Of a stretch of 64,000 bases of DNA, positions 14,888 through 64,000 are shown one piece after another. The translations under genes and the position numbers were made by a program. The notes under the pieces are model-generated. The model searched no databases. It saw only the letters and a list, made by a program, of their open reading frames with translations, and was not told where the DNA came from. The stretch is from Pomacea canaliculata (Eukaryota; Mollusca; Gastropoda; Architaenioglossa; Ampullariidae). Location: positions 28,928,392 to 28,992,391 of the forward strand of contig NC_037596.1 in assembly GCF_003073045.1 (NCBI RefSeq), read 5' to 3'. The number at the start of each line of letters is the position of its first letter. Position 1 is the stretch's first letter.

Positions 14888-17377
14888 TTATTTGTTGATT
14901 AAGGCCTTCGTGTCTTTGACAAAACCATTCCAAATCTGAAAACATTAAAATATAATCACGTGACTAAACAGGATACTCATTACGTCCAATGTAACTGCTT
15001 CCCACCATTAAAGATAATTGTCTTTCTAGTAAATTTACTTAACTACTTATTTTTTGATTGAGCAAAGTAACGACGGAGCTGACATTTAAGTACCTGTGTA
15101 AGTGTCATTGCGTAGAAAGAGGGAAGGAAAGAGGGAAATGTTCATTAGGCACGAGCGAGATTTCTTTCCAGGGAAAACCATGTGGTTTTTTGTTTGGAAT
15201 GGAAGTACATTGTTCGTGACACCAGTCACTATCTCAACTTTTTTTATCACGCACATGCAAGCACGCGTTTATTAGTTATCTACCCAAATAAGTAGTTACT
15301 CGCCAGCTACTCTATCTAATTATTGCACACAAAGAAACAAGTACATGCACGAAATCACTAACTAGTCAAGCAGGGTCTTACTTTTAGTCCATTTCTTTCG
15401 AACTCTTCTCGTGAACTTTCCCCGTCACCTGGAAATTTAAATATACAGACATATGAAAAACAGTTGAACACTTTGATATTATTGTAGCTGAGAGAAAAAT
15501 AACAACGGATTTCCAGTTAAAGTGCTAAAGTAATTATTCTGGTTCATAGTATTATATAGATGCTGTTCTAGTGAACCTTACAAACATTTGGGTTGAGAAT
15601 GATAACACTGACCGTCAGAGTCCATGCTCTTAATAATGAAAAGAGAAACTGATTGATCGATGACGCCGTCCTCATTGCCGTCCAGCTTTTCGTAGTGGGT
15701 AGAGCATCCCTGGGCATAGATTGGGGTCATTGGACAGAGAGGATTAGCCATGTACTCCAAAAGACTGCCTGCGAACAAAATTTGTAAATAAATGGCATTT
15801 TTATAACACACATTTTTTTCCTTTTCTTACGAGTTAGGTTTCTTTTATACTAGACAGGTGTAGTCAAGGCAACCACCTACTGTAACCTTCCACGCACTCG
15901 ACCGGCTGAATGAAAAGTGTAGTCAGCTCGTATAGAAAATATAGAATCTTAACAGAAAGACTAAGGAAAACAATTAAGCTAAAAAATCTCATACCAATTT
16001 GCTTAATTTAGAAGTCGTGTATCTGCAAGCTTTCTGACAAATCATTATAAGTATATATAGTAATTGCATGTCTTTCTTAAGAAGCATTTTGTAGTATTAA
16101 AATAAATTTGCTAACTCGAAATACATAGTAAAGTAACAGTTTTATTTCTTTGGTCAACATATTTTTGCTTCTTTACCCATTTGGGAGCATGAATGTATGT
16201 TTGTATCATAATTGACATACCGTGGCTTTGTTGAAAGCCTTTCATAAAAAAAGAATAATAAACTATGTATGCTATGCGTGTTCTCGCGCGCACGCCACAC
16301 AGACAAAGGTGTTCGCTTATTCTTTGTGAATCGCTGTAGCTTTATGTTATACATGGTTTTTGTTATTTGTAAAGGACTCACATTCAATAAATTTGCCTGG
16401 ACAACGTTTAGGAAAATAGTTCTGTGCTTTTAGAAAAAAAAAAATCACTAGTGACTGTGTTCAACAATTCTCAAGGATCTAGCCGCCTAGGTGTCTCATT
16501 ATCTGTTTGGGTTTTTTTTTTCATTTTTACAAAGACCACAGGGGAGGGAATGACTTGAAGCTACAAGGTCTTGTAGGAAATGAAATGTGTCCCCCAAACA
16601 CGTCAAATACCTTAAACATTGAAAATATTAATGTTAACTCTTTAACTCCGTGTTGTGCTAAACGTATAGACTACATGTTACTCAACGTATAGAATGTATA
16701 TATCTCGCGTGAGCATGCATTATTATGTAGAAAACTATTTATAGCCTAATAATATAAACACAAAGACTAATAAATGGATTATCAGTTAAGGTAGCATGTG
16801 AATGTAAGAGTCCGTAAGACTGTCCATGATGATGATGATGATGAGGAGGAGGAGGAAGATTTTAAGAGCTACAATAACAAAAGCATCAACATATTACCGT
16901 TGATGTCTCCTTTGTTGAAACCAGCCTGTAATTCGTTCTGCTGGAGCTTACCATCGCCGTCAAGGTCGATAGTGATGAAGCCATCTTGTCTGCTGGCGCT
17001 CTGCCTGAAAGTATTGACCATTGCTTGTCCTTTCTTCATTCATTAAGTCGACCTCTTATCTTTAAATATAAGGTTCTCATTTTTTTAAATTTTAAATACT
17101 GAAAACAATACATTGTAAAATCATTTACTGAAAGGTTGTAGGGTAAACCTAATTATGTTTTGTGTCCCTTGTATTGGCCCTCATTACATTTAATTTGTTC
17201 CATATGACAACATTTGATGTGACTATTTTCTAAATCTTGTCAGCCATCTTCTGTCTACCGTTATGTAAAGACTATAAGTAAATCCGTCTTTGTTTTTATT
17301 ACTTCTTCCATTGTTGGCAATTAAATTAACGCTTACCCATAAAAAGCAGCAAGAAGACAAAGGGTAAACATCTTCAT
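14888..17377 (-). CDS. secreted EF-hand protein, copy A
   Basis: Five coding exons join in frame: 17337-17377, 16898-17004, 15613-15768, 15382-15428 and 14888-14935, giving 132 residues. Exon 1 is a signal peptide, MKMFTLCLLAAFYG, one Leu shorter than its relatives. EF-hand 1 (DLDGDGKLQQNE) is complete. EF-hand 2 is damaged: exon 3 begins GSLLEY where other copies have GDGYISLSE, an in-frame loss of 12 nt. EF-hand 3 (DGNEDGVIDQSV) lacks the final acidic residue, as in all copies. EF-hand 4 (DSDGDGESSREE) is complete. The last exon gives IWNGFVKDTKALINK. The exon 3 donor is GTCAGT instead of GTGAGT. This is the most divergent copy and sits at the array edge. It is probably an extracellular calcium-binding protein; tissue role unknown. 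Confidence 0.83.
16824..16860. repeat. intronic GAT/GAG tract of copy A
   Basis: A (GAT)n(GAG)n run lies about 40 nt inside intron 2. On the transcribed strand it is a pyrimidine-rich CTC/ATC tract. Equivalent tracts occur at the same place in every copy. Confidence 0.85.
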
Positions 17378-17548
17378 GATGCCACTGTAATAAAAATATG
17401 CATCAATAAAAGTCTATTGTTTGATATGATTAGCTTGCATGGCTTAAATGTGGCTAAGCATGTATCTTCTTGTGGCAAAAATCTTGAACCTCACAGAAAA
17501 TTTATACAACTCTAAATTTCATAACAAACACAGATTGTTATTACTCAC

Positions 17549-17640
17549 AGCTGGATGCAGATAATGAACCGGGCAACTCTCAGTCCTGAAATCGTGGTGT
17601 GGCGAATGAATACGACAGGAGAAAATATGTACTTTGCTTC
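17549..17640 (-). promoter_or_regulatory. promoter and non-coding exon 1 of copy A
   Basis: Read on the minus strand, GCAAAGTACATATTTTC (about 17621-17637) is a weakened form of the TATA element seen in the other copies. It is followed by a non-coding exon ending at 17549 with a GTGAGT donor. The matching acceptor (TTATTACAG) lies a few bases upstream of the ATG at 17377. Confidence 0.6.
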
Positions 17641-17738
17641 GCAGCTAACAGATCAATAAGTATTAGGATTGATGACACAAATATTTCCCCATCTGTTTTT
17701 TTTTATGTTTGAAGTTGAGAGGTAGGAGCTGCTGAGCT

Positions 17739-18184
17739 ATGAATCGACGTGTGCGGACGTTTCGCCGCTGGACGTTTCGGAGTCGGACGTTTTGCCGCAT
17801 TATGTCAGAGAGAGAGAGAGAGAGAGAGCTTACTTACTTCTCAAAGAATGAAAGTAACTACTAGATTACAGAATAATTCTTTATTTCAAACAAATTTTAC
17901 ACACAGACTTCACAGACAGTTCACTTTGATTGTCACAGATTATGCGCAACAGCTTTGAGAAAAAACATTGATGCAATGGCGAGAGAAATGTGTGAGCTAA
18001 CGGTTCACATGAGGAGGGATAGTGAGAGAGAGTTCACTGATACATTGATACAATGGCGAGAGAAATGTGTGAGCTAAGGGGCGTCACACACTTGACTTCG
18101 GCTAAAGGTCCCGCGTGAAATGCCGAAATGAAGTGCCCCGCGCCGAAACGTCCGGCGGCGAAACGTCCGTGTACCATGAATCGA
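17739..18184. mobile_element. MULE-like MITE with 9-bp target duplication
   Basis: The element proper is 17748-18175, bounded by the exact 9-bp duplication ATGAATCGA (17739-17747 and 18176-18184). Its ends are inverted: GCGGACGTTTCGCCGC on the left and the complement of GCGGCGAAACGTCCG on the right, followed by further copies of the GGACGTTTCG motif inside. The centre contains an (AG)n run and a direct repeat around CGAGAGAAATGTGTGAGCTAA. A 9-bp duplication is typical of Mutator-like elements. The paralogous site near 52.66 kb reads GAGCTATGAAGCGAAG without insertion. It has no coding capacity. Confidence 0.82.
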
Positions 18185-20918: not shown

Positions 20919-23148
20919 TTATGGATTGAGTAAGGACTTGGTTTGTTTGGCAACACCATTCCAAATCTGAAAACATTAAAGTATAATCACGTGACCATGC
21001 AGGATTCTTATTAATTCCGATGTAACTGCTTTCCCCCCATTAAAGCTAATTATCTTTCTTTTAACTTTACTTAACCACTTATTGTTATACTTGAGTTCAT
21101 CCACACACATAATTACTCACCAGCTACTCCATCTAACTATTGCGAACAGAAAAGAGAAACTAGTACATGCACGAAATCACTAACTATTCAAGCATGGTCT
21201 TACTTTTAGTCCATTTCTTTCGTTTTCTTCGCGTGAAATTTCCCCGTCACCTGGAAATTTAAATATACAGACATCTTAAAAACAGTTGAACACTTAGATA
21301 TTACTGTAGGTGAAAAAAAAAACTATCAACGGATTTCCGGTTAAAGTGCTAAAGTAATTATTCCGGTTCATAACACTCACCGTTAGAGTCCATCATCTTC
21401 ATAACGGAAAAAGGAACTGATTGATCGAGGACGCCGTCCTCATTGCCGTCCAGCTTGTCGTAGTAGATAAAGATCCCCATGTTAGGCACCAGTGGCATCG
21501 AACTAGCAAAACTACTTATGTGCTCTGAAAGACTGACATAACCATCGCCTGCAAAAGGGATTTGTAAAATCGACATTTCTTTATTAAGAAATAAACGACT
21601 GAGGAAAAAAATAAACCTAAAAACTGATATATCCATTGCCTGCAAAAGGGATTTGTAAATTGACGATATTTTTAATTTTGAAGGAAAGACTGAGAAAAAA
21701 AATTAACTTAAAAAGCTGAGACCAATTTACTCAACTTGAAATACATTCATCCGCAAAGTTTCTCACAAATCAATGTATGTATGTACAGTTATTTTATGTC
21801 TTTCTTAAGAAGCAGTTTATGATAGTAGAATAAATTTACTGTATTAAAATACACAGTAAAGTGTCATTTCTATTGTTAACAGATTTTCTTACTTAACCTT
21901 CTTGTGAGCATTAATGTATGTTTGCCATAATTAACATACCGTGTCTTTGTTTGAAGGTTTTTTATAAATAGAGGAAAATAAACTATATATTCTGTGCGTG
22001 TTTACGCACGCGCTACACATGAGATAGGTGTTAACTTCATTTTTGTTCTGTGAAATTCTGTAGATTTATGTAATACGTGGTTTTTGTTTTTTGTAAAGGA
22101 ATTACAATCAATAGTTGTGTGTGGATAACTTTTAGGAAAAAAACTCTCTAGTGACTGTGTTGCACAATCCGCAAGTATCAAACCGCCTTGGTGTGTTTTA
22201 CTTACTATTTATTTTAATTTTTGATGTACTTTAGTTGCTTTAACACATACTTTATTAAGACCATAGAGGAGGGAATTACTTGAAGTGACAAGGGCTCATA
22301 CGAAATAAAGTCTGTCCCAAAAAGATATCAAATACCTTGGTCATCGAAAATATCAATATTCATCCTTTCACTCTACCATCATTGATGTGCTAAATGTCTA
22401 GACTACATATTACTCAACGTATACAGTGTATATTGCTCGCGCGTACATGTGTAACTATCATGCCTTAAAAACCTATCTATAGTCTAATTATATACAGTTC
22501 AAATGACTGAAAATCGATTACAAGCGAATCTAACCCTCCTTAAGACTGTCTATGATGATGATGAATAGGAGGAGGAGGAGGAGGAGGTGGAAGAGGAGGA
22601 GGACAAGGTTGAGGATGATGATGAGGAGGAAGAGAAGGAGAAGGAAGAGGATTTTAAAAGCTACAATACCAAAAGCATCAACATATTACCGTTGATGTCC
22701 TTTTTGTTGAAATCAGCCTGTAATTCGTCCTGCTGTAGAGCGCCATCACCGTCAAGGTCGATAATGCTGAAGTAATCGTCGCTGTTGGAGTTCTCCCTGA
22801 AAGTATTTACCATTCCTTGTCCTTTCTTCATTCATAAAGTCGACGTTTTATCTTTAAATATAAGTTTCTCCTTTTTTCAATATTTGTTTACTTCTTAGTT
22901 AAAGGTTGTCTACAGGTACTGTCATGCTGCTAATTCTAGTTGTGGTACCAGTTTGTAGTGTTCATCCCTTGTTAACAAAATATAAATGACAGAAAACAAT
23001 ATATTGTAAAATCATTTAATTTAAAGTTGTAGCGTAAAACTAATTCTATTTTGTTTCACTATTATTATTTATTCCATTGTTAATTTAATTAAATTAATGC
23101 TTACCCATAAACAGCAGCAAGAAGAAGACAAAAGATAAAAGTCTTCAT
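20919..23148 (-). CDS. secreted EF-hand protein, copy B (intact)
   Basis: Exons 23105-23148, 22690-22796, 21381-21548, 21204-21250 and 20919-20966 join in frame to 137 residues. The signal peptide is MKTFIFCLLLAAVYG. EF-hand 1 is DLDGDGALQQDE. EF-hand 2 is DINGDGYVSLSE, assembled across the exon 2/3 junction. EF-hand 3 (DGNEDGVLDQSV) lacks the position-12 acid. EF-hand 4 is DSNGDGEISREE, assembled across the exon 3/4 junction. The tail is IWNGVAKQTKSLLNP. All splice sites are GT-AG. The coding part is complete but the usual promoter is truncated by a mariner-type fragment, so expression may depend on another start further upstream. Confidence 0.86.
22553..22651. repeat. intronic GAT/GAG tract of copy B
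   Basis: Nearly 100 bp of imperfect GAT and GAG triplets, a CTC/ATC-rich tract on the transcribed strand, just inside intron 2. Confidence 0.85.
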
Positions 23149-23508
23149 AATGCAACAAGCCTTTTTTTCCCCTGTAATAAAAAATACAATAATGTATTTT
23201 AAAGGTTTTTTTATGTTTCCACTTTTAATATTCAATTATTAAAAATAGAATTTAGCAGATATATACGCAAGCACATGCATGCAAATGTACGCACATGTGC
23301 GTATGAACTTGAATATACACATACACATATGCACATATACATATACACATTAAAATATATAATCACTTAAAATCCATTATTTTCTATGATACGATTTCGT
23401 GACTTAAATGTAGTTAATCGAATATCATCCTATGGCAAAACTTTGTAACCTCACAGAAATTTTTTGCAACAGTAATTATCAGAACAAATAAATATTATTT
23501 TTGCTTAC

Positions 23509-23587
23509 AGCTGGATTCAGATGAGGAACGTGACAACCCTCGGTGCTCAAATCGTGGTGTGGCGAATGAAGACGAGAGAAGAAAATA
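23509..23587 (-). promoter_or_regulatory. non-coding exon 1 of copy B with truncated promoter
   Basis: The exon ends at 23509 with a GTAAGC donor as in the other copies. Reading upstream, the conserved sequence stops at GAAAATA, inside the TATA element, where a foreign fragment begins. The roughly 330 bp normally lying between TATA and the CTCCATTCCTGATGG block are absent. Confidence 0.7.
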
Positions 23588-23705
23588 CAGTGGTACCTCG
23601 ACATACGAGTGCCCTAAGATACGAGTGTATTGAGATACGAGCCGCCAAGCAAGCGATATTTTGTTTCGAGATGAGAGCAAGATTTGAGATACGAGGATAC
23701 GAGCG
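23588..23705. mobile_element. mariner-type terminal fragment
   Basis: Begins CAGTGGTACCTCGACATACG immediately after a TA dinucleotide, a terminus typical of Tc1/mariner-related elements and their MITEs. It carries repeated GATACGAG motifs. The right side ends at a TA but lacks a matching inverted terminus, so the element is truncated or the insertion was accompanied by deletion of host DNA. Confidence 0.65.
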
Positions 23706-25135: not shown

Positions 25136-25182
25136 TACGACGACGACGACGACGACGACGCTGCTGCTGCTGCTGATGATGA
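25136..25182. repeat. (ACG)n(CTG)n(ATG)n microsatellite
   Basis: Consecutive ACG, CTG and ATG triplet runs. Confidence 0.9.
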
Positions 25183-25287: not shown

Positions 25288-25289
<2 letters not shown>

Positions 25290-28081: not shown

Positions 28082-30325
28082 TTATGGATTGAGTAAGGAC
28101 TTGGTTTCTATGGCAACACTATTCCACATCTGAAAACATTAAAATATAGTCACGTGACCAAACATGATTCTTATTACGTCCGATGTAACTGCTTCCCCCC
28201 ATTTAAGCTAATTATCTTTCTATTAACTTTACTTAAGCATTTATTTTATACTTAAGCTCGAAAATGAACAAATTAACCACGGACCTGACGGTAAGTACCA
28301 ACGAAGAAACTTTCCATCATTGCATAGAAACAGAATGAAAGAGGGAAATGTGCATTAAACATCGGGAGATGCTTTAAGGGAAAACCATGTAGTTTGTTGT
28401 GTTTGAAATGGAAATACATTGTTTTTGACACAAGTCACTATCTCGACTTCTTTATCACACTCATGCAAGCACGCTTTTATTGGTCATAAACTCACATAAT
28501 TAGTTACTCACCGTCTACTTCATCTGATTATTGCGAACACAAAAGTGAAACTAGTATATTCACGAGATCACTAACTATTCAAGCATGGTCTTACTTTTTG
28601 AATATTTCTTTCGAACTCTTCGCGTGAAATTTCCCCGTCACCTGGAAATTTAAATATACAGACATCTTAAAAACAGTTGAACACTTTGATATTACTGTAG
28701 GTGAGAAAAAAAACTAACAACGGATTTTCAGTTAAAGTGCTAAAGTAGTTATTCTAGTTCATAGTCTTATCTAGATGCTGCTCTAGTGAGCCTTACGGTG
28801 CAAAGATTTAGGTTGAGAATGATAACACTCACCGTCAGAGTCCATGATCTTTATAACGGAAAGAGAAACTGATTGATCGATGACGCCGTCCTCATTGCCG
28901 TCCAGCTTGACGTAGTAGATAAAGGACCCCATGTTAAATAACAGTGGCCACGAACTAGCATAACTACTTATGAACTCCGAAAGACTGATATATCCATCGC
29001 CTGCAAAAAGGATTTGTAAATTGACGATATTTTTAATTTTGAAAGAAAGACTGAGGAAAATAATTAACCTTAAAAAGCTGAGATCAATTTACTCAACTTG
29101 AAAAACATTCATCCCCAAAGTTTCTAACAAATCAATGTATGTATGTACATTAATTTTATGTCTTTCTTAAGAAGCATTTTATGATACTAAAATCAATTTA
29201 CTATATTGAAATACAAAGTAAAGTGTTATTTTTATTGTCAACAGATTTTGTTACTAAACCTTCATGTGATCATTAATGTATGTTTACCATGATTAACATA
29301 CTGTGTCTTTGTTTGATGTTTTTTTTAAAAATAGAGAAAATAAACTATATATTCTATGCGTGTTTTCACGCGCGCCACACAGGAGATAGATGCTAACTTC
29401 ATTTTTTTCTGTAGATTTATGTGAAATTTTGTAGATTTATGTAATATAGGTTTTTGTTTTATTTGTAAGGAGCTACAATTAATAGTTGTGAGTGGACAAC
29501 GTTTAGGAAAAAAACTCTCTAGTGACTGTGATGCACAATGTGAATTAATCATGCCTTAAGAACCTATTTATAGTCTAATAATATACAGCTCAAATGACTT
29601 ATAAAAATGATTACAAGCGAATGTAAAGCTCCACAAGACTGTCGATGATGATGAGGATGAGGAGGAGGAGGAGGAGGAGAAGGAGGAGAATGAAAAGGAG
29701 GAGGATTTTAAAAGAAACAACAACAAAATCATCAACATATTACCGTTGATGTCTTTTTTGTAGAAATCAGCCTGTAATTCGTACTGCTCAAGAGCGCCAT
29801 CCCCATCAAGGTCCATAATGCTGAAGACATCTTCGCTTTTGGAGTTCTCCTGAAAGTATTTACCATTCCTTGTCCTTTCTTCATTCATAAAGTTGCCGTT
29901 TTATCTTTAAATATAAGTTTCTCCTTTTTTCAATACTTTTTTACTTCTTAGTTAAAGGTTGTCTACATGTACTGTCATAGTGCTAACTCTAGTTCTGGTA
30001 CCAGTTTGTAGTGTTCATCCCTTTTTAACAAAATATAAAATACTGAAAACATTATATTGTAAACTCATTTAATTTAAGTTTGTAGTGCAAAACTAATTCT
30101 ATTTTGTTTCCCTTAAATTGGCAATACCTACATATAATTTGATCCATATGACAACATCTGATGTGACAATTTACTCAATCTTGTCAGCCACCTTCTATGT
30201 ACCGTTATATAAAGACTGTACATAAATACGTTTTGTTTTTATTACTTCTTCCGTTGTTAATTTAATTAAATTAATCCTTACCCACAAACAGCAGCAAGAA
30301 GAAGACAAAAGATAAAAGTCTTCAT
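28082..30325 (-). pseudogene. EF-hand protein, copy C, frame broken at exon 1/2 junction
   Basis: The five exons are recognisable at 30282-30325, 29744-29849, 28833-29000, 28595-28641 and 28082-28129. Exon 1 gives MKTFIFCLLLAAVCG with a GTAAGG donor. Exon 2 is 106 nt instead of 107: the acceptor reads TTTCAG followed by GAGAAC where other copies have GGAGAAC. This shifts the frame, loses the EF-hands, and meets a TAA in exon 3. Without that one-base loss the exons would encode DLDGDGALEQYE, DINGDGYISLSE and DSDGDGEISREE loops. The non-coding first exon lies far upstream because a hAT element is inserted in the first intron. A consensus error at this one base is a real alternative to pseudogenisation. 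Confidence 0.75.
29643..29706. repeat. intronic GAT/GAG tract of copy C
   Basis: GAT and GAG triplets with AAG interruptions, at the same place inside intron 2 as in the other copies. Confidence 0.85.
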
Positions 30326-30507
30326 AATGCAACAAGCTTTTTTGCCCCTGTAATAAAAAAATACAATAATGTATTTTAAAGTACAATGTATTTTTGTTGT
30401 GTTTCTCCTTTTAAAGTTCGATTAGTGAAAATTAGCTTTTAGCAGATGTATACGCAAGCACATGCTTGCACATGTACGCTCAGGTGAGTATGAACTTGAA
30501 TATACAC

Positions 30508-32817
30508 CAGGGGTCTCAAACTCAATTTACCCGGGGCCACTGGAGGCAGAGTCTGGATGAGGCCGGGCCGCATCAGGTTTTCCACAAGAAAAGCTCTTAC
30601 AAAAACATTCCAATGTTATCAAATGTCTTATTTTTTCATCTTAATTTGTGTTAAAAATAAAAATAAAATTAACAAATTCAAAGAAAAAAAATAAATCAAT
30701 TAGTAATAAATGAATAAATTGAAAATTAAAAATATATAATATATACAGCAATATAGAAGACTGAAGAAAATATAGTTGCTGACCAGAGAAATGTAATTAT
30801 TATTATTCAGATTCAAATGTCTGTATTAGCATTTCTTTAACATTTAACTTTCTGAACATGAATGGAACATTGAACATAAACTGTTTTGAACATGGCTTCT
30901 TCTGCCTACTTCTTGCTGCTAGAGGTCTGGCAGCGCTTACTCTCACATAGCGAGCCACATTTGGCTTAAGGAGGAAGCAGTTGAGACCCTCAGTACGGCT
31001 TGAAGATGTTCATCAGTAAGTCTGGATCTGTACTTGGACTTATTGAAGTTCAAGTAGAGAAGAGCTTTTCGCACAAGTATGTGCTCCCAAAAAAGACACA
31101 TGGTCCCGCTTGAAACATTCGAGAAAGCTCAGGGAAGCTAGGGGGCAATTCTCTCAAAAATTGCCCGAGCTTGTCCGCTTTTCCACTCACCTCCCTGAAC
31201 TTGGCTTTGAGTTCAGAGTTGCACTGCAGGTCAATGAGCCCATTTGAAGCACAGGAGGAGCATCTTGTACATAAAAGGAGTAGGGTCCTCAAAAATTTGA
31301 ACTGTGGTGTTCTGTGCGTCTTTGAAATCCGCAAATCTGTGATCGAATTCCTCCTGTAGCTTCAAAATGAATCCACATACTCTTCACCGCTGAACGGTGT
31401 GCCTGCATCCATGAGTGCCTTGCATGCTGAGAAATGGCAAAGGTCTGTCTGAGAAAGTTGGGCTTTAATAACATAAGTTTTGTAGAGAATGCTCTCACGT
31501 TGTCATAGGCAACACTGACAAGTTGCCCCTGACCTTGTAGCTTCTTGTTCAGTACGTTAAGCTCATGTGTCATATCAACCAAAAAAGCTAAGTCCATGAG
31601 CCATTTTGGATCACTTAGCACAGGAACAGCAACCCCATCTTTCTCCATGAAGGCTTTCACTTCGGCTCTCAACTCAATCTCTTCAATATGTTTCCCCTGC
31701 TGACCCAACGTACCTCGGTGAAGCAGAGCACATCCCCATATTCTGACTCCATTTCCTCTAAAAAAGCACGAAACCTTCTGTGCTTTAAGCCCCTGGATCT
31801 GATTTGGTTTGATACATTTCACAACGAAAGACATCACATTGTCAAACTTCAGGCATTTGCTGCAAAGGGCCTGCTGATGAATAATGCAGTGCAGAGCAAT
31901 GGCCTCCTCCACACCTTCCTCTTCCAGTTTGTTTGTTTTTTTTTTGTTTTGTTTCTTTTTTGAACAAGTGCCACCAGTCCTCCCTGTCATTGATGGCGCT
32001 CCATCAGTTGTTATTCCAACAAACCTCCTCCAAGGCAAACCGGCATTCTCAATGGCATCACACAGCTGGTGAAATATCTCCTGAGCTGTGGTCTGGCCAT
32101 GCATTGGAATCACTGAGAGCAACTCCTCTATGACTTCAAAAGTGTCATCAACACCGCGGACAAAGACTGCGAGTTGGGCAGTGTCGGTGATGTCTGTGGT
32201 CTCATCAAGAGCGACTGAGTATACAATATGAAATAATATATATGAAACATTTTGCTTTCTCACACAGTTGATCATAAATGTCACCTGGACAGGTCAGAAA
32301 ATGCGCTCTGCTACGGTGTTGGCAGAAAGGCTGATGTTGCTAAACTGACCTTTCTTTTCTGGACAGACAATTTTTGCAGCCTGTAATATGCACATTTTTT
32401 AAAAATTCACCTTCTTTGAATGGCTTTCCTGCTTTAGCAATCATCTCACTAACCACGTAGCTAGCTTCGACTGCTGCGTCATTCTCTTTGGTTGCTTTCT
32501 TAAAGAAATTTTGTTGCCTCAGTAGATGTGTTTTAAGATTAGCAACCCGGCTGACTCTCTCATCTCCCTGGTATTTTGCATACTCCTCAGTATGTCTAGT
32601 TGTGTAATGATGTTTCAAATTGTATTCTTTGTGCACTGCAACTTTCTCTGTGCAAATAAGACACGTTGGGCTGCCTCTGTGGGAGCGAGAGAGGAGAAGA
32701 TATAACAGTATCAAACTCGGGCCGCACTAACATGAAACTTTGATATTGAGGTGGGGGCCGCAAACTTTTGTCCGGCGGGCCGCAGTTGGCCCGCGGGCCG
32801 CGAGTTTGAGACCCCTG
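30508..32817 (-). mobile_element. hAT (Charlie-like) DNA transposon in intron 1 of copy C
   Basis: The 2310-bp element has identical 16-bp inverted ends CAGGGGTCTCAAACTC and a perfect 8-bp target duplication ATATACAC (30500-30507 and 32818-32825). Copy B has the empty site near 23.31 kb (GAACTTGAATATACACATAC). The coding strand is minus. Extra GGCCGCGAG-type motifs lie at both ends. Confidence 0.93.
30930..32714 (-). pseudogene. hAT transposase remnant, GTF2IRD2/ZBED-like
   Basis: An N-terminal part at 32340-32714 has CLICTEKVAVHKEYNLKHHY followed by TRHTEEY, a BED-like zinc-finger pattern (C..C...H....H). The catalytic core lies at 31289-32284 with ALDETTDITDTAQLAVFVRG and GITTDGAPSMTG, and a helical region with ALHCIIHQQALC. 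The C-terminal dimerisation region follows near 30.93-31.12 kb, with STYLCEKLFST and, further on, a SRLTDEHL-type stretch. The parts are in different frames and separated by stops, and a lysine-rich low-complexity insert interrupts the core, so it is not functional. The resemblance to GTF2IRD2 and ZBED5 type domesticated Charlie transposases is from recognition of motifs. Confidence 0.8.
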
Positions 32818-33022
32818 ATATACACATACACATATGCACATATACACATAGATACATATGCACATTAAAATGTATTATCATGTAAAATCAATTGTTTTCT
32901 GTGATAAGATTGCGTGGCTTAAATGTAGTTAAACGAATATCGTCCTATGGCAAAGCTTTGCAACCTAACAGAAATTTTTTCAACAGTAATTATCAGAACA
33001 AATAAAGATTATTTTTGCTTAC

Positions 33023-33107
33023 AGCTGGATTCAGATGAGGAACGTGACAACCCTCGGTGCTGAAATCGTGGTGTGGCGAATGAAGACGAGAGAACAAAAT
33101 ATATACT
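33023..33107 (-). promoter_or_regulatory. promoter and non-coding exon 1 of copy C
   Basis: The minus strand reads CAAAGTATATATTTTG at about 33097-33112 (TATA box), then a non-coding exon of about 50 nt ending at 33023 with GTAAGC. This is the intact array promoter, although its gene is frame-broken. Confidence 0.7.
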
Positions 33108-33942
33108 TTGCTTCGTGGTAAAGAGATCAATTGAGATTAGGATCGATGACTAAATCTTATCAAGCCAATAGACCATATTAACAGAAGAAAATATTCTCTT
33201 TGAACTTTCCAAAGTTCCAAACGAAAACTAAATGTTGATGGTCAGGTTTCCCTTCTTACACAACATGACCGAGTCAGTGAGGATGTGAACTCATAAACCC
33301 CTCAAAAGCTTGAGGATTAAGGTGTAGTGACCTTACATATTGTCTTAGCTTACTGCTGCCCACATGTTTGTGAAATAAATGTTGTCATGCTCTGTGGAGT
33401 TGATATTTATGGTCGCCAGTCACATGTACTGAGCTTAAACTCCATTCCTGATGGGACTAGTGTGTTTAATCTTATTAACTAGCAGTGCACGAACAAAGCA
33501 GTAGATGGTGTTTTTATCTTCTAATCACATTAAGACAAAATACACGTGTGCATATGTGTGTGCTTATGTGTTAGCTTGTTTGTTAGTGCGTGTGTGTGTT
33601 AGTGCATTCTTTGTGCATGTGTTTGTGAGTGCGAACGCTAGTATCATTTAATTAAATATCGTCTCCACGTTTTTGCTAAGGGATTAACTTGCGTGTGTGT
33701 GTAGGTCCCCTGTCTACAGTATTTTGTACACTGACACTTATTTGTGTATAGATGTCAGGGCTATTTGTCTCACAACCACTCACACACCAAGAGTAGGGAT
33801 ACGACGTACCTAGCGAACCTATGATAAACGTAGACCACAACAAAGACGAAATGAGCGGTACCAATAAGCAGTTTAATAAAAATGCAGGAAAAAACAAGAA
33901 ATAAAAAGGAAATTAAAGAAATTTTTTTACGCATACACATGG

Positions 33943-50183: not shown

Positions 50184-52065
50184 TTATGGACTGAGTACGG
50201 ACTTGCTTTCTTTGGCACCACCATCCCAAATCTGAAAACATTAAAGTATAATCACGTGACAAAGCAGGATTCTTATTACGTCCGATGTAACTTCTTTCCC
50301 CCATTAAAGCTAATTATCTCTCTTTTAACTTTACTTAACCACTTATTTTTATACTTAAGTTCATCCACACACATAATTAGTTACTCACCGGCTACTCCAT
50401 CTGATTATTGCGAACACAAAAGAGAAACTAGTACATGCACGAAATCACTAACTATTCAAGCATGGTCTTACTTTTAGTCCATTTCTTTCGTGCTCTTCGC
50501 GTGAAATTTCCCCGTCACCTGGAAATTTAAATATACAGACATCTTAAAAACAGCTTAACACTTTGATATTACTGTAACTGAAAAAAAACTAACAACGTAT
50601 TTCCAGTCAAAGTGCTAAAGTCATTATTCTAGTTCATAGTATTATCTAGATGCTGCTCTAGCGAGCCTTACAGTGCAAAGATTTAGGTTGAGAATAATAA
50701 CACTCACCGTTAGAGTCCATCATCTTCATAACGGAAAGAGGAACTGATTGATCGACGACGCCGTCCTCATTGCCGTCCAGCTTGTCCATGTAGATAAAGA
50801 TCCCCATGTTATGCACCAGTGGCACCGAACTAGCATAACTACTTATGTGCTCTGAAAGACTGATGTATCCATTGCCTGCAAAAGCGATTTGTAAAATTGA
50901 CATTTCTTATTAAGAAATAAACGACTGAGGAAAAAAATCAACCTCAAAAATCTCAGACCAATTTACTCAACTTGAAATACATTCATCCGCAAAGTTTCTA
51001 ACAAATCAATGTATGTATGTACAGTTATTTTATGTCTTTCTTAAGAAGCATTTTATGATAGTAGAATAAATTTACTGTATTGAAATACACAGTAAAGTGT
51101 CATTTCTATTGTCAACAGATTTTGTTATTTAACCTTCTTATGAGCATGAATGTATGTTTACCATAATAACATACCGTGTCTTTGTTTAAAGTTTTTTATA
51201 AATAGAAAATAATAAACTATATATTTCATATCACACAGGAGATATGTGTTAACTTCATTTTTTTCTGTGAAATTCTGCAGATTTATGTAATACATGGTTT
51301 TTGTTATTTGTAAAGTAGTCACAATAAATAGTTGCGCGTGGAGAAAGTTGAGGAAAAAGGAGGAGGAGGATGATAATAATGAGGATGATAACGGGGATGA
51401 GGATGATAATGATGATGATGAGGAGGAGGAGACGGAGGAGAATGAGAAGAAGGAGGCTCTTAAAAGCTACAATACCAAAAGCATCAACATATTACCGTTG
51501 ATGTCCTTTTTGTTGAAATCAGCCTGTAATTCGTCCTGCTGCAGAGCACCATCGCCGTCAAGGTCGATAATGCTGAAGAAATCTTCGCTGCTGGGGTTCT
51601 CCCTGAAAGTATTTACCATTCCTTGTTCTTTCTTCAGTCATAAAGTCAACGTCTTATCTTTAAATATAGGTTTCTCATTTTTCAATACTTTTTTACTTCT
51701 TAGTTAAAGGTTGTATACAGGTACTGTCATGCTGCTAATTCTAGTTTGTAGTATTCATCCCTTTTTAACAAAATATAAAATACTGAAAACAATATATTGT
51801 AAAATCATGTAATTTAAGGTTTTAAAATAAAACTAATTCTATTTTGTTTCCCTTAAATTGGCAATAACTACATATAATTTGATCCATATGACAACATCTG
51901 ATGTGACAATTTACTCAATCTTGTCAACCACCTTCTATGTACAGTTATGTAAAGACTGTAGAGAAATCCGTTTTGTTTTTATTACTTCTTCCATTGTTAA
52001 TTTATTTAAATTAATGCTTACCCATAAACAGCAGCAAGAAGAAGACAAAAGATAAAAGTCTTCAT
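50184..52065 (-). CDS. secreted EF-hand protein, copy E (intact)
   Basis: Exons 52022-52065, 51496-51602, 50708-50875, 50472-50518 and 50184-50231 join in frame to 137 residues. The signal peptide is MKTFIFCLLLAAVYG. Loops are DLDGDGALQQDE (EF-hand 1), DINGNGYISLSE (EF-hand 2, across exon 2/3), DGNEDGVVDQSV (EF-hand 3, no acid at position 12) and DSNGDGEISREE (EF-hand 4, across exon 3/4). The tail is IWDGGAKESKSVLSP. The closest relative in the array is copy B (both have SEHISS and MKMMDSNG). Promoter, splice sites and frame are all intact, so this is the best candidate for a working gene and a good reference for the family. Confidence 0.88.
51353..51445. repeat. intronic GAT/GAG tract of copy E
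   Basis: GAG, GAT and AAT triplets over about 90 bp in intron 2, the longest such tract with copy B. Confidence 0.85.
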
Positions 52066-52478
52066 AATGCAACAAGCCTTTTTGCCCCTGTAATAAAAAT
52101 ACAATAATGTATTTTAAAGTATTTTTGTTATATTTCTCCTTTTAATATTCAATTAATGAAATTAGCTTTTAGCAGACATATACACAAACACATGTATGCA
52201 CGTCGTACACGGGTGCACGTCCTTGAACACACATATACACAAACACACATACCGATATACACACATACACATACACGCATACACACAAACACACATACAC
52301 ACATACACATATACACATTAAAATGTATATAATCATTTAAAATCCATTTTTTTCTATGATAAAATTGCGTGGCTTAAATGTAGTTAAACGAATATCGTCC
52401 TATGGCAAGACTTTGTAACATTACTGACATTTTATGCAACAGTAATTATCAGAACAAATAAAGATTATTTTTGCTTAC

Positions 52479-52562
52479 AAATGGATTCAGAAGAGGAACG
52501 TGACAACCCTCCGTGCTGAAGTCCCGGTGTGGCGAATGAAGACGAGAGAAGAAAATATATAC
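52479..52562 (-). promoter_or_regulatory. promoter and non-coding exon 1 of copy E
   Basis: The minus strand reads CAAAGTATATATTTTC at about 52551-52566, then a non-coding exon ending at 52479 with a GTAAGC donor. The intron acceptor before the ATG is ATTACAG, about 20 nt upstream of the start codon. Confidence 0.75.
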
Positions 52563-53819
52563 TTTGCTTCGTGGTAAACAGATCAATTGAGATTAGGATC
52601 GATGACAGAAAATTCCCATCTCTGTTTTCATCTTTGTAAATGGCAGGTAAAAGCTGCTGAGCTATGAAGCGAAGATGATCTACTCGCCTAGGATAATTAA
52701 GTGCTAAAAAAACACTGGTATTAGCAAGTTCACAAGTTTACAAAAGAAATCCACATTTTCCTTTTATAACATTTAACGACATTTTAAATGTATTGTTGTT
52801 TTCTTTGCATAATGTGTTTGTGCGTTTGTCTCGTAGTTACATTCTAAAAAATTAATAGAACATGTGATTCACTGTGTCTCTGTGTATTAATAGTAGTAGT
52901 AAGAGTAGTAATAGTAGTAGTAAAATAAAAAAGAAATTCATTTGTTGCACATCATGCTTGTTCAATAGTTTATTCTCTGGAATTCGCAAAAGGGTTGGTT
53001 GTAGAATATCAAGCCAATAGATCATATCCGCAACAGTAAATATCCTCTTTGAACTCAGAATTCTAAGTTGCAAATGAAAACTAAATGTTGATGGTCAGGT
53101 TTCCCTTCCTACACAACATGACCGAGTCAGTGAGGATGTGAACTCATAAGCCCTTCAAAAGCTTGAGGATTAAGGTGTAGTGACCTTACATATTATCTAA
53201 GCTTACATAAATGTTGTCATGCTCTGTGGAGTTGATATTTATGGTCGCCAGTGACATGTATTGAGCTTAAGCTCCCTTTCTGATGGGACGAGTGTATTTA
53301 ATCTTATTAGCTCGCAGTGCACGAACAAAGCAGTAGATGGTGTTTTTATTTAACAATCACATTAAGACGAAATACACGTGTGCATATGTGTGTGCTTATG
53401 TGTTAGCTTGTTTGTTAGTGCGTGTGTGTATTAGTGTATTCTTTGTGCATGTGTAGGTGAGTGCAAACGCTAGTGTCATTTAATTAAATATCTTCTCCAC
53501 GTTTTTGTTAGGGGATTAACTTGCGTGTGTTTGTAGGTCCCTTGTATACAGTATTTTATACACTGACACTTATTTGTGTATAGATGTCAGGGCTGTTTGT
53601 CTCACAACCGCTCACACAGCCAGAGGAGGGACACGACGTACCTAGCGAATTCTGATGAACGTAGACCACAACAAAGACGAAATGAGCGGTTAAATGAACA
53701 GTTCAATAAAAATGTAGGAAAAAAACAAGAAAGAAAAAGAAATTAAAGAAATACTTTTACGCGTACTCGCATATGCAAGAAATCCAGGGATTGCCCAATA
53801 CACCTTAGAAGAGGTAATG

Positions 53820-56269: not shown

Positions 56270-56500
56270 ATACTTAGTATACTTAATACTTCAGTTGTTA
56301 GTATAAAGTAATAAATAGTAATCTGTTACTACACCGAATGTAACATTTATTAGTATTTTTAATAGTACATTTATTAGTTAGGCTAATAGTACAGTTGTTA
56401 GTATACCAAATAGTAATTTGTTCCTTCATTTAAAAGTACATTGATTAGTATGTTTAATAGAATACTTGTTAGTATAGTTAATAGTACGTTTCGAAGTAGA
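56270..56500. repeat. 24-bp minisatellite, unit E/F copy
   Basis: The same degenerate TTAGTATAC/AGTACATTT repeat as at 19.54 kb, again producing an eight-residue periodic frame on the minus strand. Confidence 0.78.
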
Positions 56501-57467: not shown

Positions 57468-59642
57468 TTATGGATTAAGTACGGACTTGCTTTCTTTGGC
57501 AACACCATTCCAAATCTGAAAACATTAAAGTATAATCACGTGACCAAGCAGGACTCTTATTACGTCCGATGTAACTGCTTCCCCCATTAAAGCTAATTAT
57601 CTTTCTATTAACTTTACTTAACAACTAATTTTTATACTTAAGTTCATCCACCCACGTAATTAGTTGCTCACCAGCTACTCCATCTAACTATTGCGAACAC
57701 AAAAGACAAACTAGTACATGCACGAGATCACTAACTATTCAAGCATGGTCTTACTTTTAGCATATTTCTTTCGAACTCTTCTCGTGAAATTTCCCCGTCA
57801 CCTGGAAATTTAAATATACAGACATCTGAAAACCAGTTGAACACTTTGATATAATAGTTGGTGATAAAAAAACTAACAACGGATTACCAGTCAAAGCGCT
57901 AAAGTAATTATTCTAGTTCATAGTATTATCTAGATGCTGCTCTAGCGAGCCTTACAGTGCAAAGATTTGGGTTGAGAATGATAACACTCACGGTTAGAGT
58001 CCATGATCTTCATAGGCGGAAAGAAAGCTGATTTGATCGATGACGCCGTCCTCATTGCCGTCCAGCTTGTCGTAGTAGATAAAGGCCCCCATTTTAAATT
58101 CCAGTGACCACGAACTAGCAAAACTTTTTATGAACTCCGAAAGACTGATATATCCATCGCCTACAAAAGGGATTTGTACATTGACGATATTTTTAATTTT
58201 GAAAGAAATATTGAGAAAAAAATTAACTTAAAAAGCTAAGACCAATTTACTCAACGTGAAAAACATTCATCCACAAAGTTTCTAACAAATCAATGTATGT
58301 ATGTACAGTTATTTTATGTCTTTCTTAATAAGCATTTTATGATAGTAGAATCAATTTACTGTATTGAAATATTGTCAACAGATTTTGTTACTTAACCATC
58401 TTGTGAGCATGAATGTATGTTTACCATAATTAACATACCGTGTCTTTGTTTGAGAAAAATAACCTATATATTCTGTGCGTGTTTTGGCACGCGCCACACA
58501 TGAGATAGGTTTTAACTTCATTTTTGTTCAGTGAAATTCTGTAGATTTATGTAATACGTGGTTTTTTTAATTTGTAAAGGAGTTACAATCAATAGTTGTG
58601 CGTGGACAACTTTTAAGAAAAGACTCTCTAGTGACTGTGTTGCACAATCCGCAAGTATCAAACCGCCCTGGTGTGTTTTACTAACTATTTTTTTTTTTTT
58701 CATTTTTGATGTACTTTAGTTGCTGTAACACAGACTTTATTAAGACCATAGAGGAGGGAATTACTTAAAGTGACAAGGGCTCCTACGAAATAAAGTCTGT
58801 CCCAAAAAAGATATCAAATACCTTTGTCATCGAAAATATCAATGTTCATCCTGTCATTCTAACATCATTGATATGTTAAATTTCTAGACTACATATTACT
58901 TACCGTATAAAGTGTATATTGCCGAACGTACATGTGTAACTATCATGCCTTAAAATCTATTTATTTGCTATTAATATACAACACACATGACTGATAAATG
59001 GATTACAAGTGAATGTAAAGCTCCGTAAGACTGTCGATGATGGAGCATAATGATGATGATGAGGAGGAGGAGGAGGAGACGGAGGAGGAAGAGAATGAGG
59101 AGGACGAGGATTTTAAAAGCTACAATACCAAAAGCATCAACATATTACCGTTGATGTCCTTTTTGTTGAAATCAGCCTGTAATTCGTCCTGCTGCAGAAC
59201 GCCATCACCGTCAAGGTCCGCAACGCTGAAGAAATCTTCGCTGTTGGAGTTCTCCCTGAAAGTATTTACCATTCCTTGTTCTTGTATACAGGTACTGACA
59301 TATTGGTAATTCTAGTTCTGGTACGAGTTTGTAATGTCCATCTTTTGTTAGCAAAATATAAAATACTGAAAACATTATATTGTAAACTCATTTAATTTAA
59401 GGTTGTAGCGTAAAACTAATTCTATTTTGTTTCCCTTAAATTGGCAATAACTACATATAATTAGATCCATATGACAAAATCAATTTACTCAATAGTGTCA
59501 GCCAGCTTCTATGTACCGTTATATACAGACTGTACATAAATCTGTTTTATTTTTATTACTTCTTCCGTTGTTAATTTATTTAAATTAATGCTTACCCACA
59601 AACAGCAGCAAGAAGAAGAAGACAAAAGATAAAAGTCTTCAT
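57468..59642 (-). pseudogene. EF-hand protein, copy F, frameshift in exon 3
   Basis: Exons lie at 59596-59642, 59149-59255, 57992-58160, 57755-57801 and 57468-57515. Exon 1 gives MKTFIFCLLLLAAVCG with one extra Leu. EF-hand 1 is DLDGDGVLQQDE and EF-hand 2 DINGDGYISLSE. Exon 3 is 169 nt instead of 168 because of an extra base around CATAGGCGG (near 58.01 kb). Translation then ends at a TAA five bases before the donor, removing EF-hand 4 and the tail. The last base before the donor is also changed, so Gly at loop position 4 would become Arg. The promoter and all splice sites are intact. It is a recent pseudogene, a truncated product, or a one-base consensus error. Confidence 0.76.
59040..59110. 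repeat. intronic GAT/GAG tract of copy F
   Basis: GAT and GAG triplets at the conserved place in intron 2. Confidence 0.85.
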
Positions 59643-59799
59643 TAATGCCAACAAGCTTTTTGCCCCTGTATTACAAAAAATACAATAATGTATTTTAAAG
59701 TATTTTTGTTATGTTTCTCCTTTTAATATTCAATTAGTGAAATTAGCTTTTAGCAGATATATACGCAAGCACATGTGGCAACGGGTTCATGTCCTTGAA

Positions 59800-59814
59800 C
59801 ATACACATACACCC

Positions 59815-59895
<81 letters not shown>

Positions 59896-59900
59896 TACAC
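59800..59900. repeat. (ACACAT)n microsatellite
   Basis: About fifteen hexamer units in the first intron of copy F. Shorter related tracts sit at the same place in copies B, D and E, and in G as the complement. Confidence 0.93.
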
Positions 59901-60110
59901 ACATACACATATCCCCATATACACACATACACATATTACGCTATACACATTAAAATGTATAAAATCTATTAAAAGCCATTGTTTTCTATGATAAAATTGC
60001 GTGGCTTAAATTTAGTTAAACGAATATCGTCCTATCGCAAGTTTTTGTAACCTCACTGAAATTTTATGCAACAGTAATTATCAGAACAAATAAAGATTAT
60101 TTTTGCTTAC

Positions 60111-60195
60111 AAGTTGATTCAGATGAGGAACGTGACAAACCTCCGTGCTGAAATCGTGGTGTAGCGAATGAAGACGAGAGAAGAAAATATATACT
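60111..60195 (-). promoter_or_regulatory. promoter and non-coding exon 1 of copy F
   Basis: The minus strand has CAAAGTATATATTTTC at about 60183-60198, then the non-coding exon ending at 60111 with a GTAAGC donor. Confidence 0.72.
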
Positions 60196-62490
60196 TTGCT
60201 TCGTGGTAAAAAGATCAATTGAGATAAGGATCGATGACTAAATCATATCAAGCCAATAGACCATATTAACAGAAGAAAATATCCTCTTTGAACTCAGAAT
60301 TCTAAGTTGCAAATGAAAACTAACTGTTGATGGTCAGGTTTCCCTTCCTACACAACATGACCGAGTCAGTGAGGATGTGAACTCATAAGCCCTTCAAAAG
60401 CTTGAGGATTAAGGTGTAGTGACCTTACATATTGTCTAAGCTTACTGCTGCCCACATGTTTGTGAAATAAATGTTGTCATGCTCTGTGGAGTTGATATTT
60501 ATGGTCGCCAGTCACATGTACTGAGCTTAAACTCCATTCCTGATGGGACTAGTGTGTTTAATCTTATTAACTAGCCGTGCACGAACAAAGCAGTAGATGG
60601 TGTTTTTATCTAACAATCACATTAAGACACGTGTGCATATGTGTGTGCTTATGTATTGTTCGTTAGTGGGTGTGTGCATTAGTGTATTCTTTGTGCATGT
60701 GTAGGTGAGTGCGAACGCTAGTATCATTTAATTAAATATCGTCTCCCCTTTTTTGTTAGGGGATTAACTTGTGTGTATTTGTAGGTCCCTTGTATACAGT
60801 ATTTTAAACAGTGATACTTATTTGTGTATAAATGTCAGCGCGATTTGTCTCACAATCGCTCACACAGCCAGAGGAGGGAAACGACGTACCTAGCGAACCT
60901 ATGATGAACGTAGACAAAGAACAAAGACGAAATGAGCGGTGCAAATGAGCAGTTTAATAAAAATGTAGGAAAAAAACAAGAAAGAAAAAGAAATTAAAGA
61001 AATACTTTTACGCATACAGGCACATGCAAGAAAACCAGAGATTACCCCACACAGCAAAGAAAAGGTAATGAGAGATGCTGGAAAGGGAGATAATTTAAAA
61101 AACCGCCAAACACCAGCACGCACTGCGGCACAGTATTGTCAGAGTTCTTGCCCCTGAGGCCTTCAAGCGTAACGTTAGATGTAGACACTGTGTACTCTGT
61201 TGACACTGTATGCTCACTGGAATGTCTGACCGATGTGCGCATGGACCATCTGCTGGTCCACAGTTCACACGACGAAGGACAAGACGACGAAGGTGACGGA
61301 ACAAAGAAATGAAGGGAGGATGAAACGAAGAACGGTTGAGATTCCACACACGCAGGGGCGGAAAAGGCGAAGAAATATGATGAAAATGAAGAAACGAACC
61401 GACACAACAACCAGGACAAGGCTGACAAGATCACGGGAGAATACGAAGAATGTGAGAAGTTGGAAGAAAAAAAAAGGATGACATGAGTGACAAAGTCGGG
61501 ATACGATGCTTATTTTTCCTATTTTTCCACTAAACCATTGATTAGTGTGGACTAAACAAAAAGATGAAGAAACAGTACAAACAACAAATATAATAGAAGT
61601 AAGCCTTCGGGTAGTCAGTAGAGATAGATTTCACAAAGTGGTTCATTGAAACACCCTTTCGAACCCAGCAAAGCAAATTATGTATAAGGCATAGTCATGC
61701 ATGACACTGATTGATACTATAGAATCATTTATACACACATTCACTAATATTAATATACATATATATCCAACTTGTAGTGTCCTTCATTATGTACGTAATA
61801 TTTCTTAGGAAAACTAGAGGACTTTAGTCGAGGGTACTACATATTTCCCGTATTTCAAATATGTACAAAGAAGGAAACGTGTAGTGTAATTAGTATATGA
61901 TAGCTCACATCAATAGTATGGAATGAAAAATAAAAAGTGCTTAAAATATTTTAAGATGTGATGCTTACAATACTCTTTTTTACCTCAAACATTCTGAGTA
62001 TACTAAACATATTAATATTTATTTTAGCACAGTTATATTCATTCTGAATCTTTTTTAAAATAATATCACAAATCTGTCTTCACCACAGAAGGTAGTTGCT
62101 TAAACTAAAATGGAACACATCGAAATATATTTAACTGCTTTGAAGAGGCATCATCCCACTGCTGGTGACAGTCTATCACTCTATGCCTCAAGATAAATTA
62201 ATTAAAAAATCTCCAGTTCCATGACATTCCCACACCACGCGACCTAAACATAAGAAATCATTCACTTTATAATTTTTGGTACATTCCACATATGTGGATT
62301 TCTTTTGTAAGGTTGTGAACTTGGTAATACCAGTGTTTTCTTAGCACTTAATTATGGTGGGAATAATCCTAGGTGACTAGTTCAACTTCGATTTGTAGCT
62401 CAGCAGCTCTTACCTGCCAACTACAAAGATGAAAACAGAGATGGGAATTTTCTGTCACCGATCCTAATCTCAATCGATCTGTTTACCACG
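60196..62490. other. shared upstream region of divergent copies F and G
   Basis: From the F promoter to about 62.23 kb the sequence runs in normal unit orientation (CTCCATTCCTGATGGG block, charged segment, ATTAAGTGC-type spacer). Right of about 62.23 kb the sequence is the complement of the upstream region found near 52.62-52.76 kb. No gene was recognised. Confidence 0.6.
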
Positions 62491-62495
62491 AAGCA

Positions 62496-62580
62496 AAGTA
62501 TATATTTTCTTCTCTCGTCTTCATTCGCCACACCACGATTTCAGCACCGAGTGTTGCACGTTCCTCTTCTGAATCCAGTT
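62496..62580 (+). promoter_or_regulatory. promoter and non-coding exon 1 of copy G
   Basis: GCAAAGTATATATTTTC lies at 62493-62509, with the exon starting about 25-30 nt later and ending at 62580 before GTAAGC. The intron runs to the acceptor ATTACAG at 62919. Confidence 0.75.
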
Positions 62581-62941
62581 GTAAGCAAAAATAATCTTTA
62601 TTTGTTCTGGTAATTACTGTTGCATAAATAGTCAATGAGGTTACAAAGTTTTGCCATAGGACGATATTCGTTTAACTACATTTAAGCCACGCAATCTTAT
62701 CATAGAAAACAAGGGATTTTAAATGATTATATACATTTTAATGTGTATATGTGTATGTGTGTATATGTGTATCTGTGTATGTGTATGTTTAAGGATGTGA
62801 ACCCGTTGCCACATGTGCTTTGGTATTACCTGTAAAAACTAATTTCACTAATTGAATATTAAAAGGAGAAACATAACAAAAATCTTTTAAAAATACATTA
62901 TTGTATTTTTTTATTACAGGGGCAAAAAAGCTTGTTGCATT

Positions 62942-63521
62942 ATGAAGACTTTTATCTTTTGTCTTCTTCTTGCGGCTGTTTATGGGTAAGCATTAATTTA
63001 ATTAAATTAACAATGGAAGAAATAATAAAAACAAAACGTATTTATGTACAGTCTTTACATAACGGTACATAGAAGGTGGCTAAAGAGATTGAGTAAATTG
63101 TCACATCAGATGTTGTCATATGGATCAAATTATATGTAGTTATTGCCAATTTAAGAGAAAAAATACAATTAGTTTTACGCTACAACCTTAAATTAAATGA
63201 GTTTTCAATATATTGTTTTCAGTATTTTATATTTTGTTAAAAAGGGATAGACATTACAAACATGTACCAGAACTAGAGTTAGCACTATGACAGTACCTGT
63301 ATACAACCTTTAACTAAGAGATACAAAAGTATTCAAAAATGAGAAATTTATATTTTAAGATAAAACGTCGACTTTATGAATAAAGAAAGGACAAGGAATG
63401 GTAAATTCTTTCAGGGAGAACTCCAACAGCGAAGATTTCTTCAGCATTATGGACCATGACGGTGATGGCGCTCTTGAGCAGTACGAATTACATGCTGATT
63501 TCTACAAAAAAGACATCAACG
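62942..63521 (+). CDS. secreted EF-hand protein, copy G (5' part, inverted)
   Basis: Coding exons 62942-62985 and 63415-63521 are on the plus strand. The rest of the gene lies beyond the right edge; exon 3 is expected several hundred bases further by comparison with the others. The signal peptide is MKTFIFCLLLAAVYG and mature sequence begins ENSNSEDFFS. EF-hand 1 is DHDGDGALEQYE, followed by a linker and KKDING, the first four positions of EF-hand 2. Exon 2 resembles copy C (EQYE and DFYKKD), so G and C are closest relatives, and G has the base that C has lost. The promoter is intact. It is the only copy in this orientation. Confidence 0.82.
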
Positions 63522-64000
63522 GTAATATGTTGATGATTTTGGTATTGTAGCTTTTAAAATCCTCTTACTTCTCATTCTTTTCCTCCTCCTTCTCGTCATC
63601 ATCCCAATTATCATTATCATCCTCCTTCTCATCATAGTCATCATGATTATCCACCTCATTAACATCATCGACAGTCTTGTGGAGCTTTACATTCACTTGT
63701 AATCACTTTATCAGTCATTTGAGCTGTATATTATTAGACTATAAATAGGTTCTTAAAGCATTATAAATTCACATTGTGCAACACAATCACTAGAGAGTTT
63801 TTTTTCCTATACGTTGTCCCCGAACGACTATTAATTGAAACTACTTTACAAATTACATAAACCATTTATTACATAAATCTACAGAATTTCACAGAAAAAA
63901 ACATGAAGTTAACACCTATCTCCTGTGTTGCGCGCGCGTTAACACGCATAGAATATATAGTTTATTTTTCTTTATTTATAAAAGGCTTCAAAGAAACACA
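63522..64000 (+). other. intron 2 of copy G, cut by window edge
   Basis: Contains the CTC/ATC pyrimidine-rich tract (about 63563-63660) and unit intron sequence (for example the complement of ACTCTCTAGTGACTGTG). Exon 3 is not reached. Confidence 0.7.

Follow-up and report, generated by a model that had tools for sequence, protein, structure and literature searches.

Calmodulin-type proteins have regularly spaced EF-hand loops, near 36 residues apart, and carry no signal peptide, while members of CREC (calumenin, reticulocalbin) possess some six EF hands and a C-terminus resembling HDEL. Lanmodulin, a bacterial periplasmic protein, is recognized by four EF-hand motifs with 12-13 residues between neighbours, a proline at position 2 of one or more loops, and picomolar, lanthanide-selective binding (PMC10232371). 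Here we describe an array of genes for small secreted EF-hand proteins in the apple snail Pomacea canaliculata. The DNA analysed, a stretch of 64,000 nucleotides hereafter called the window (C7:28928392-28992391, C7 being contig NC_037596.1 of assembly GCF_003073045.1), holds seven copies of the gene, six on the minus strand and the seventh inverted. At a probability of about 0.6, we read them as part of a large, fast-turning-over apple-snail family of small, acidic, secreted calcium-binding proteins that likely serve as extracellular calcium buffers or carriers.

Gene copies and their structure

The array runs from position 14888, the last base of the copy 1 stop codon, to the end of the window. 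Exon-by-exon matching and three exact RefSeq matches confirmed the seven copies in about 49 kb that had been proposed from the sequence. The likeness of the copies lies far beyond chance: copy-to-copy matching blocks reach 73-93% identity with E-values down to 0.0, and the spliced models of three copies are identical to RefSeq proteins. These exact matches are copy 1 to P0011 (LOC112569372), copy 2 to P0002 (LOC112569365 isoform X2), and copy 5 to P0001 (LOC112569364 isoform X1, identical over 137 residues). Copy 7, which stands head to head with copy 6 and leaves the window after exon 2, is intact once completed from DNA outside the window and equals P0005 (LOC112569362). Copies 1, 2, 5, and 7 are thus intact, but copies 3, 4, and 6 are all frameshifted by small insertions or deletions in this assembly. 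Copy 4 is particularly rich in such changes and may in part reflect assembly error.

Copies 1-6 have five coding exons each. Exon 1 encodes the signal peptide and ends in phase 2, exon 2 encodes EF1 and the start of loop 2, exon 3 completes loop 2, encodes EF3, and opens loop 4, exon 4 completes loop 4, and exon 5 encodes a short tail. Intron 2 interrupts loop 2, and intron 3 loop 4, at an identical point and in phase 1. An upstream block is common to all copies, with a splice donor in seven of seven and a TATA-like box in six (plain in copies 3, 5, 6, and 7, variant in copies 1 and 4), while no TATA-like box was found in the exon 0 block of copy 2. Given this conserved donor and an acceptor-like site directly before the start codon, the gene probably has a sixth, non-coding exon 0. 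The five exons originally predicted do not include this probable exon 0.

Protein architecture and comparison with described EF-hand systems

The N-terminal exon is hydrophobic and, judged by eye, encodes an MKTFIF...-type signal peptide. Family proteins are acidic and of about 13 kDa, with mature chains of 118-123 residues and isoelectric points of 4.05-4.40 in the six proteins tested. For copy 5, four of the five listed Pfam EF-hand models scored above cut-off, and its loops start at residues 28, 48, 84, and 104, a spacing of 20/36/20. Of the 18 family proteins, alignment A2 comprised 16; it excluded, as did alignment A1, P0006 for its alternative acceptor and P0010 because it was mis-spliced. 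Linkers between loops measured 8/24/8 residues in 15 of the 16 aligned proteins and 8/23/8 in the other. Position 12 was acidic (E or D) in loops 1, 2, and 4 of all 16, but was V, A, I, or L, and never acidic, in loop 3, so that the four EF hands of the original prediction are present as loops, the third of them not canonical. Loop 2 of copy 1 (P0011) is four residues shorter. Conservation was higher in loops than in the remainder within and between subfamilies (0.88 vs. 0.72, 0.75 vs. 0.67, and 0.53 vs. 0.18). That the proteins are secreted and would bind calcium outside the cell is well supported.

The profile search also listed 108 other EF-hand proteins. In 66 of these, some loop pair lies less than 14 residues apart, so that close loops are common among such matches; the 20/36/20 spacing was absent from these 108. 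The spacing of the snail loops repeats at an offset of 56 residues, and introns 2 and 3 agree in position and phase within their loops. We do not claim an internal duplication of a 56-residue two-loop unit, which finds little support in residues outside the loops: 478 to 2773 of 5000 shuffles reached the observed score across six proteins.

Profiles above the curated cut-off and the acidic position 12 in loops 1, 2, and 4 place the proteins in the EF-hand superfamily. Those three loops carry canonical residues as in calmodulin-type proteins, but the snail proteins differ in their signal peptide and in their 20/36/20 spacing, compared with 36/42/36 in a match named calmodulin (P0014). CREC proteins fit poorly: the snail chains have four loops, and their aligned C-termini finish on P, K, A, or D and never resemble HDEL. 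Lanmodulin and the snail proteins are both small and exported, with adjacent loops nearer to each other than usual, so that the snail pairs can be called a lanmodulin-like fusion. In a Foldseek search lanmodulin ranked third, with the highest target-normalised TM-score (0.48) among the 50 matches listed. Measured against its hallmarks, the snail proteins have four loops, the third degenerate in all 16, and linkers of 8/24/8 rather than 12-13 throughout, although they do fall under the looser rule of one pair less than 14 residues apart (PMC10232371). Proline at loop position 2 occurs in none of the four intact window copies (P0001, P0002, P0005, P0011) and in two of 16 family proteins (P0122 and P0123, both in loop 4). 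No homology is claimed. We regard it as unlikely that this animal family independently evolved a lanmodulin-like fold, with EF2-EF3 and EF1-EF4 packing, metal-dependent ordering, diversifying surfaces, and a megabase array. The 8/24/8 layout offers a testable animal case of fused EF-hand pairs for comparison with lanmodulin.

Substitution patterns among intact copies

Across 414 coding bases, copies 2 and 5 were free of gaps, although 4.5 would be expected at the rate seen in their introns. When copies 1, 2, and 5 were compared pairwise, whole-protein ratios of nonsynonymous to synonymous substitution rates (dN/dS) were 0.88, 1.15, and 1.66, none of them significant. We pooled six intact copies (2, 5, 7, and L003, L005, and L008 from outside the window), leaving out copy 1 (divergent and gapped) and L002 (exon-2 donor not located). 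Whole-protein dN/dS was 1.25 (confidence interval, CI, 0.75-2.44), with 0.47 in the signal peptide, 0.49 in the loops (CI 0.18-1.71), and 2.13 in the rest of the mature protein (CI 1.17-5.62; 32 of 5000 bootstraps did not exceed 1). When columns were permuted between loops and rest, 44 of 5000 runs reached the observed contrast. Setting one parameter of a codon model to 1 (unnamed in the output and taken as omega) worsened the fit of the rest by 5.4 log units and that of the loops by 0.2. Counter to diversification of the surface, the closest pair, copy 2 and L005, had a dN/dS of 0.18. All of these ratios are based on small counts and non-independent pairs, with gene conversion outside the model.

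The wider family in the genome

A single exon-3 query against 440 Mb in 24 contigs returned at least 57 places at E <= 0.001, counts that are lower bounds. On C7 there are 49, of which 48 fall at 28.29-29.46 Mb, within 1.17 Mb, and one at 26.44 Mb; four more lie on C6 near 27.89 Mb and four on C11 near 4.53 Mb. The "at least seven" copies of the original prediction are thus correct for the window but represent only a small part of the family, while its description as secreted, EF-hand, molluscan, and array-expanded is supported by Pfam, by the RefSeq matches, and by this search. By tblastn, the window and loci L001-L032, minus four loci overlapping the window, hold 28 distinct exon-3 places in eight sequence groups, and in most of them the exon-3 acceptor and donor keep their positions. 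Strong support went to groups A, C, D, E, and G in an exon-3 tree (32 peptides, 56 columns) in which many forks are unsupported; this tree omits four of the 28 places, two for in-frame stops, one for an unreadable start, and one for a stop at its end. In groups B-F, all ten genes with paired exons 2 and 3 share the same loop-cutting intron and a loop 1-loop 2 spacing of 20 (one read by eye), and in group G, on C11, the middle linker is shorter by four residues.

An adjoining block of eight copies at 28.853-28.906 Mb runs parallel in orientation to the window, with its last copy likewise inverted. Identity is 96.2% between copy 3 and L002 and 92.5% between copy 2 and L005, while L003 and L008 have no comparable single best partner. 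Given the parallel order and these pairings, we read the window seven and the neighbouring eight as a block duplication with later local change. That the sister block is the other haplotype seems less likely, as 96.2% and 92.5% look, by impression, older than alleles. Elsewhere on C7, two runs of four family exons (C7:29316120-29334953 and 29425106-29439714), offset by about 105-109 kb, suggest either a further block duplication or a haplotype left uncollapsed.

The protein matches listed cover at least 12 RefSeq gene numbers, LOC112569335 to LOC112569372. RefSeq family entries are predictions labelled uncharacterized protein, with one product named calmodulin-4-like. Isoforms of LOC112569343 (P0003, P0006, P0008, P0009) differ along their length; isoform X6 is identical to the L008 gene, and X7 has, by eye, the exon 3 of L002. 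Separate tandem genes thus seem to have been combined in RefSeq under one gene number. Among the matches listed (best 120 of 209; 7981 candidates scored), at least 18 close relatives were all from Pomacea. As this search needs shared five-residue words and groups C-H of the same genome were not recognized among its named entries, absence outside Pomacea cannot be claimed. In the papers searched, six family gene identifiers and the prefixes LOC1125693 and LOC1125694 went unmentioned. The genes themselves are already known, as uncharacterized RefSeq predictions, and we judge them to encode EF-hand proteins of an unusual fused-pair layout in a very large array.

Possible functions of the array

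In the reading that we prefer, the signal peptide, on its own exon, would direct the protein into the secretory path, and the mature chain would present its loops as two fused pairs (loop, eight residues, loop), with three loops apparently calcium-competent and the third degenerate. Tandem and block duplication would have raised the gene to its present number, mostly in one 1.2 Mb stretch, possibly in response to a need for dosage. The products would most likely be extracellular calcium buffers or carriers in a calcium-rich secretion, their surface outside the loops diversifying while the loops hold. Several observations speak against such a role: of the seven copies in the window three are broken, loop 3 is throughout degenerate and copy 1 additionally lacks part of loop 2, whole-protein dN/dS does not differ from 1, and the confidence interval of the loop value includes 1. 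The broken copies and the near-neutral whole-protein ratio, together with the insertion in intron 0 of copy 3, would also suit a decaying array without present function. This we consider very improbable, given that intact genes include four window copies as well as L003, L005, and L008, that changes are unevenly distributed between loops and rest, and that the copy 4 insertions and deletions are possibly assembly errors. Doubtful, but with more in its favour, is a role in recognition, in which calcium would only lock the scaffold and the diversifying surface would meet a changing partner (pathogen, sperm, or egg). The contrast between 2.13 outside and 0.49 inside the loops, with its bootstrap and permutation results, and a birth-and-death pattern with block duplication agree with it, but the contrast comes from only six paralogues with few synonymous changes and is subject to the limits given above, and the sister pair copy 2/L005 runs the other way.

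The secretion in question could be that of the egg. As a special case of calcium buffering or carriage, the proteins may belong to the perivitelline fluid or calcified capsule, made by albumen and capsule glands, and load or stabilize calcium carbonate in aerial eggs, a possibility that we hold tentatively. Three sources favour it, and the proteins reported by the first two are secreted and from the same species. Egg capsule proteomics of P. canaliculata lists seven calcium-binding proteins, drawn with EF hands according to a figure legend, and finds capsule-protein genes mostly high in albumen or capsule gland (PMC13394694). The perivitelline fluid contains a calcium-binding protein above 10,000 transcripts per million in Pomacea (PMC13336756), and aerial layers, unlike Marisa, have a calcium-binding protein potentially involved in eggshell calcification (as stated in a review, PMC13203566). 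That the close relatives listed were all from Pomacea points the same way. The named capsule protein XP_025102048.1 is reportedly an egg protein, its source given as Sun et al. 2019. It weighs against an egg role for the array: with seven accession/gene-number anchors from PMC8533556, it interpolates near LOC112568808, about 530 gene numbers before the array block, and since errors on five left-out anchors were 53-90, it is probably not an array member. Shell-matrix or mucus proteins from mantle or foot, which would bind calcium where the shell grows or in mucus, are a rather improbable alternative; acidic secreted EF-hand proteins would suit this role, and 12 capsule proteins are common to shell (PMC13394694).

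If made for aerial eggs, the array would provide a genomic handle on terrestrial egg-laying and on post-laying calcification of the capsule in apple snails. If not egg-related, it would represent, in a major invasive pest, a little-studied, diversifying secreted family whose exon 3 occurs at 57 places or more. Conserved loops set against changing surfaces also make clear predictions for binding and partner assays.

Features of the window

Table 1. Gene copies, upstream blocks, and the copy 3 insertion in the window (positions counted from its first base).
Feature	Span	Strand	Details
Copy 1, intact (LOC112569372)	14888..17377	-	exons 17337-17377, 16898-17004, 15613-15768, 15382-15428, 14888-14935
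Copy 1 promoter-like block and exon 0	17498..17698	-	TATA-like GTACATATTT at 17632; donor GT 17548
Copy 2, intact (LOC112569365 isoform X2)	20919..23148	-	exons 23105-23148, 22690-22796, 21381-21548, 21204-21250, 20919-20966
Copy 2 exon 0 block	23458..23658	-	donor GT 23508
Copy 3, frame broken at exon 2 start	28082..30325	-	exons 30282-30325, 29744-29849, 28833-29000, 28595-28641, 28082-28129
Copy 3 insertion, ~2.3 kb, between exon 0 and exon 1	30471..32818	-	transposase-like open frames 31289-32293, 32340-32726
Copy 3 promoter-like block and exon 0	32974..33172	-	TATA-like box 33106; donor GT 33022
Copy 4, broken by multiple small indels	36329..38602	-	exons 38559-38602, exon 2 end at 38102, 36854-37027, 36617-36663, 36329-36376
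Copy 4 promoter-like block and exon 0	38976..39181	-	TATA-like box 39110; donor GT 39026
Copy 5, intact (LOC112569364 isoform X1)	50184..52065	-	exons 52022-52065, 51496-51602, 50708-50875, 50472-50518, 50184-50231
Copy 5 promoter-like block and exon 0	52429..52628	-	TATA-like box 52562; donor GT 52478
Copy 6, frameshift in exon 3	57468..59642	-	exons 59596-59642, 59149-59255, 57992-58160, 57755-57801, 57468-57515
Copy 6 promoter-like block and exon 0	60061..60260	-	TATA-like box 60194; donor GT 60110
Copy 7 promoter-like block and exon 0	62432..62630	+	TATA-like box 62498; donor GT 62581
Copy 7, inverted	62942..64000	+	in-window exons 62942-62985, 63415-63521

Simple-repeat tracts of CACATA/TACACA lie upstream of copy 6 (59789-59900) and copy 5 (52221-52320), and the wider gap between copies 4 and 5 contains a reverse-transcriptase frame (RVT_1, 67 bits) at 40608-41204 on the plus strand. 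No Rfam families and no tRNAs were found in the window. Minus-strand exons of the scavenger-receptor cysteine-rich (SRCR) type occur at 950-1243 and 111-398, the second slightly below the Pfam cut-off. A 366-codon open frame at 11443-12543, also on the minus strand, resembles a rhodopsin-like seven-transmembrane receptor, with 7tm_1 (49 bits) and Srw (46.7 bits) both above cut-off.

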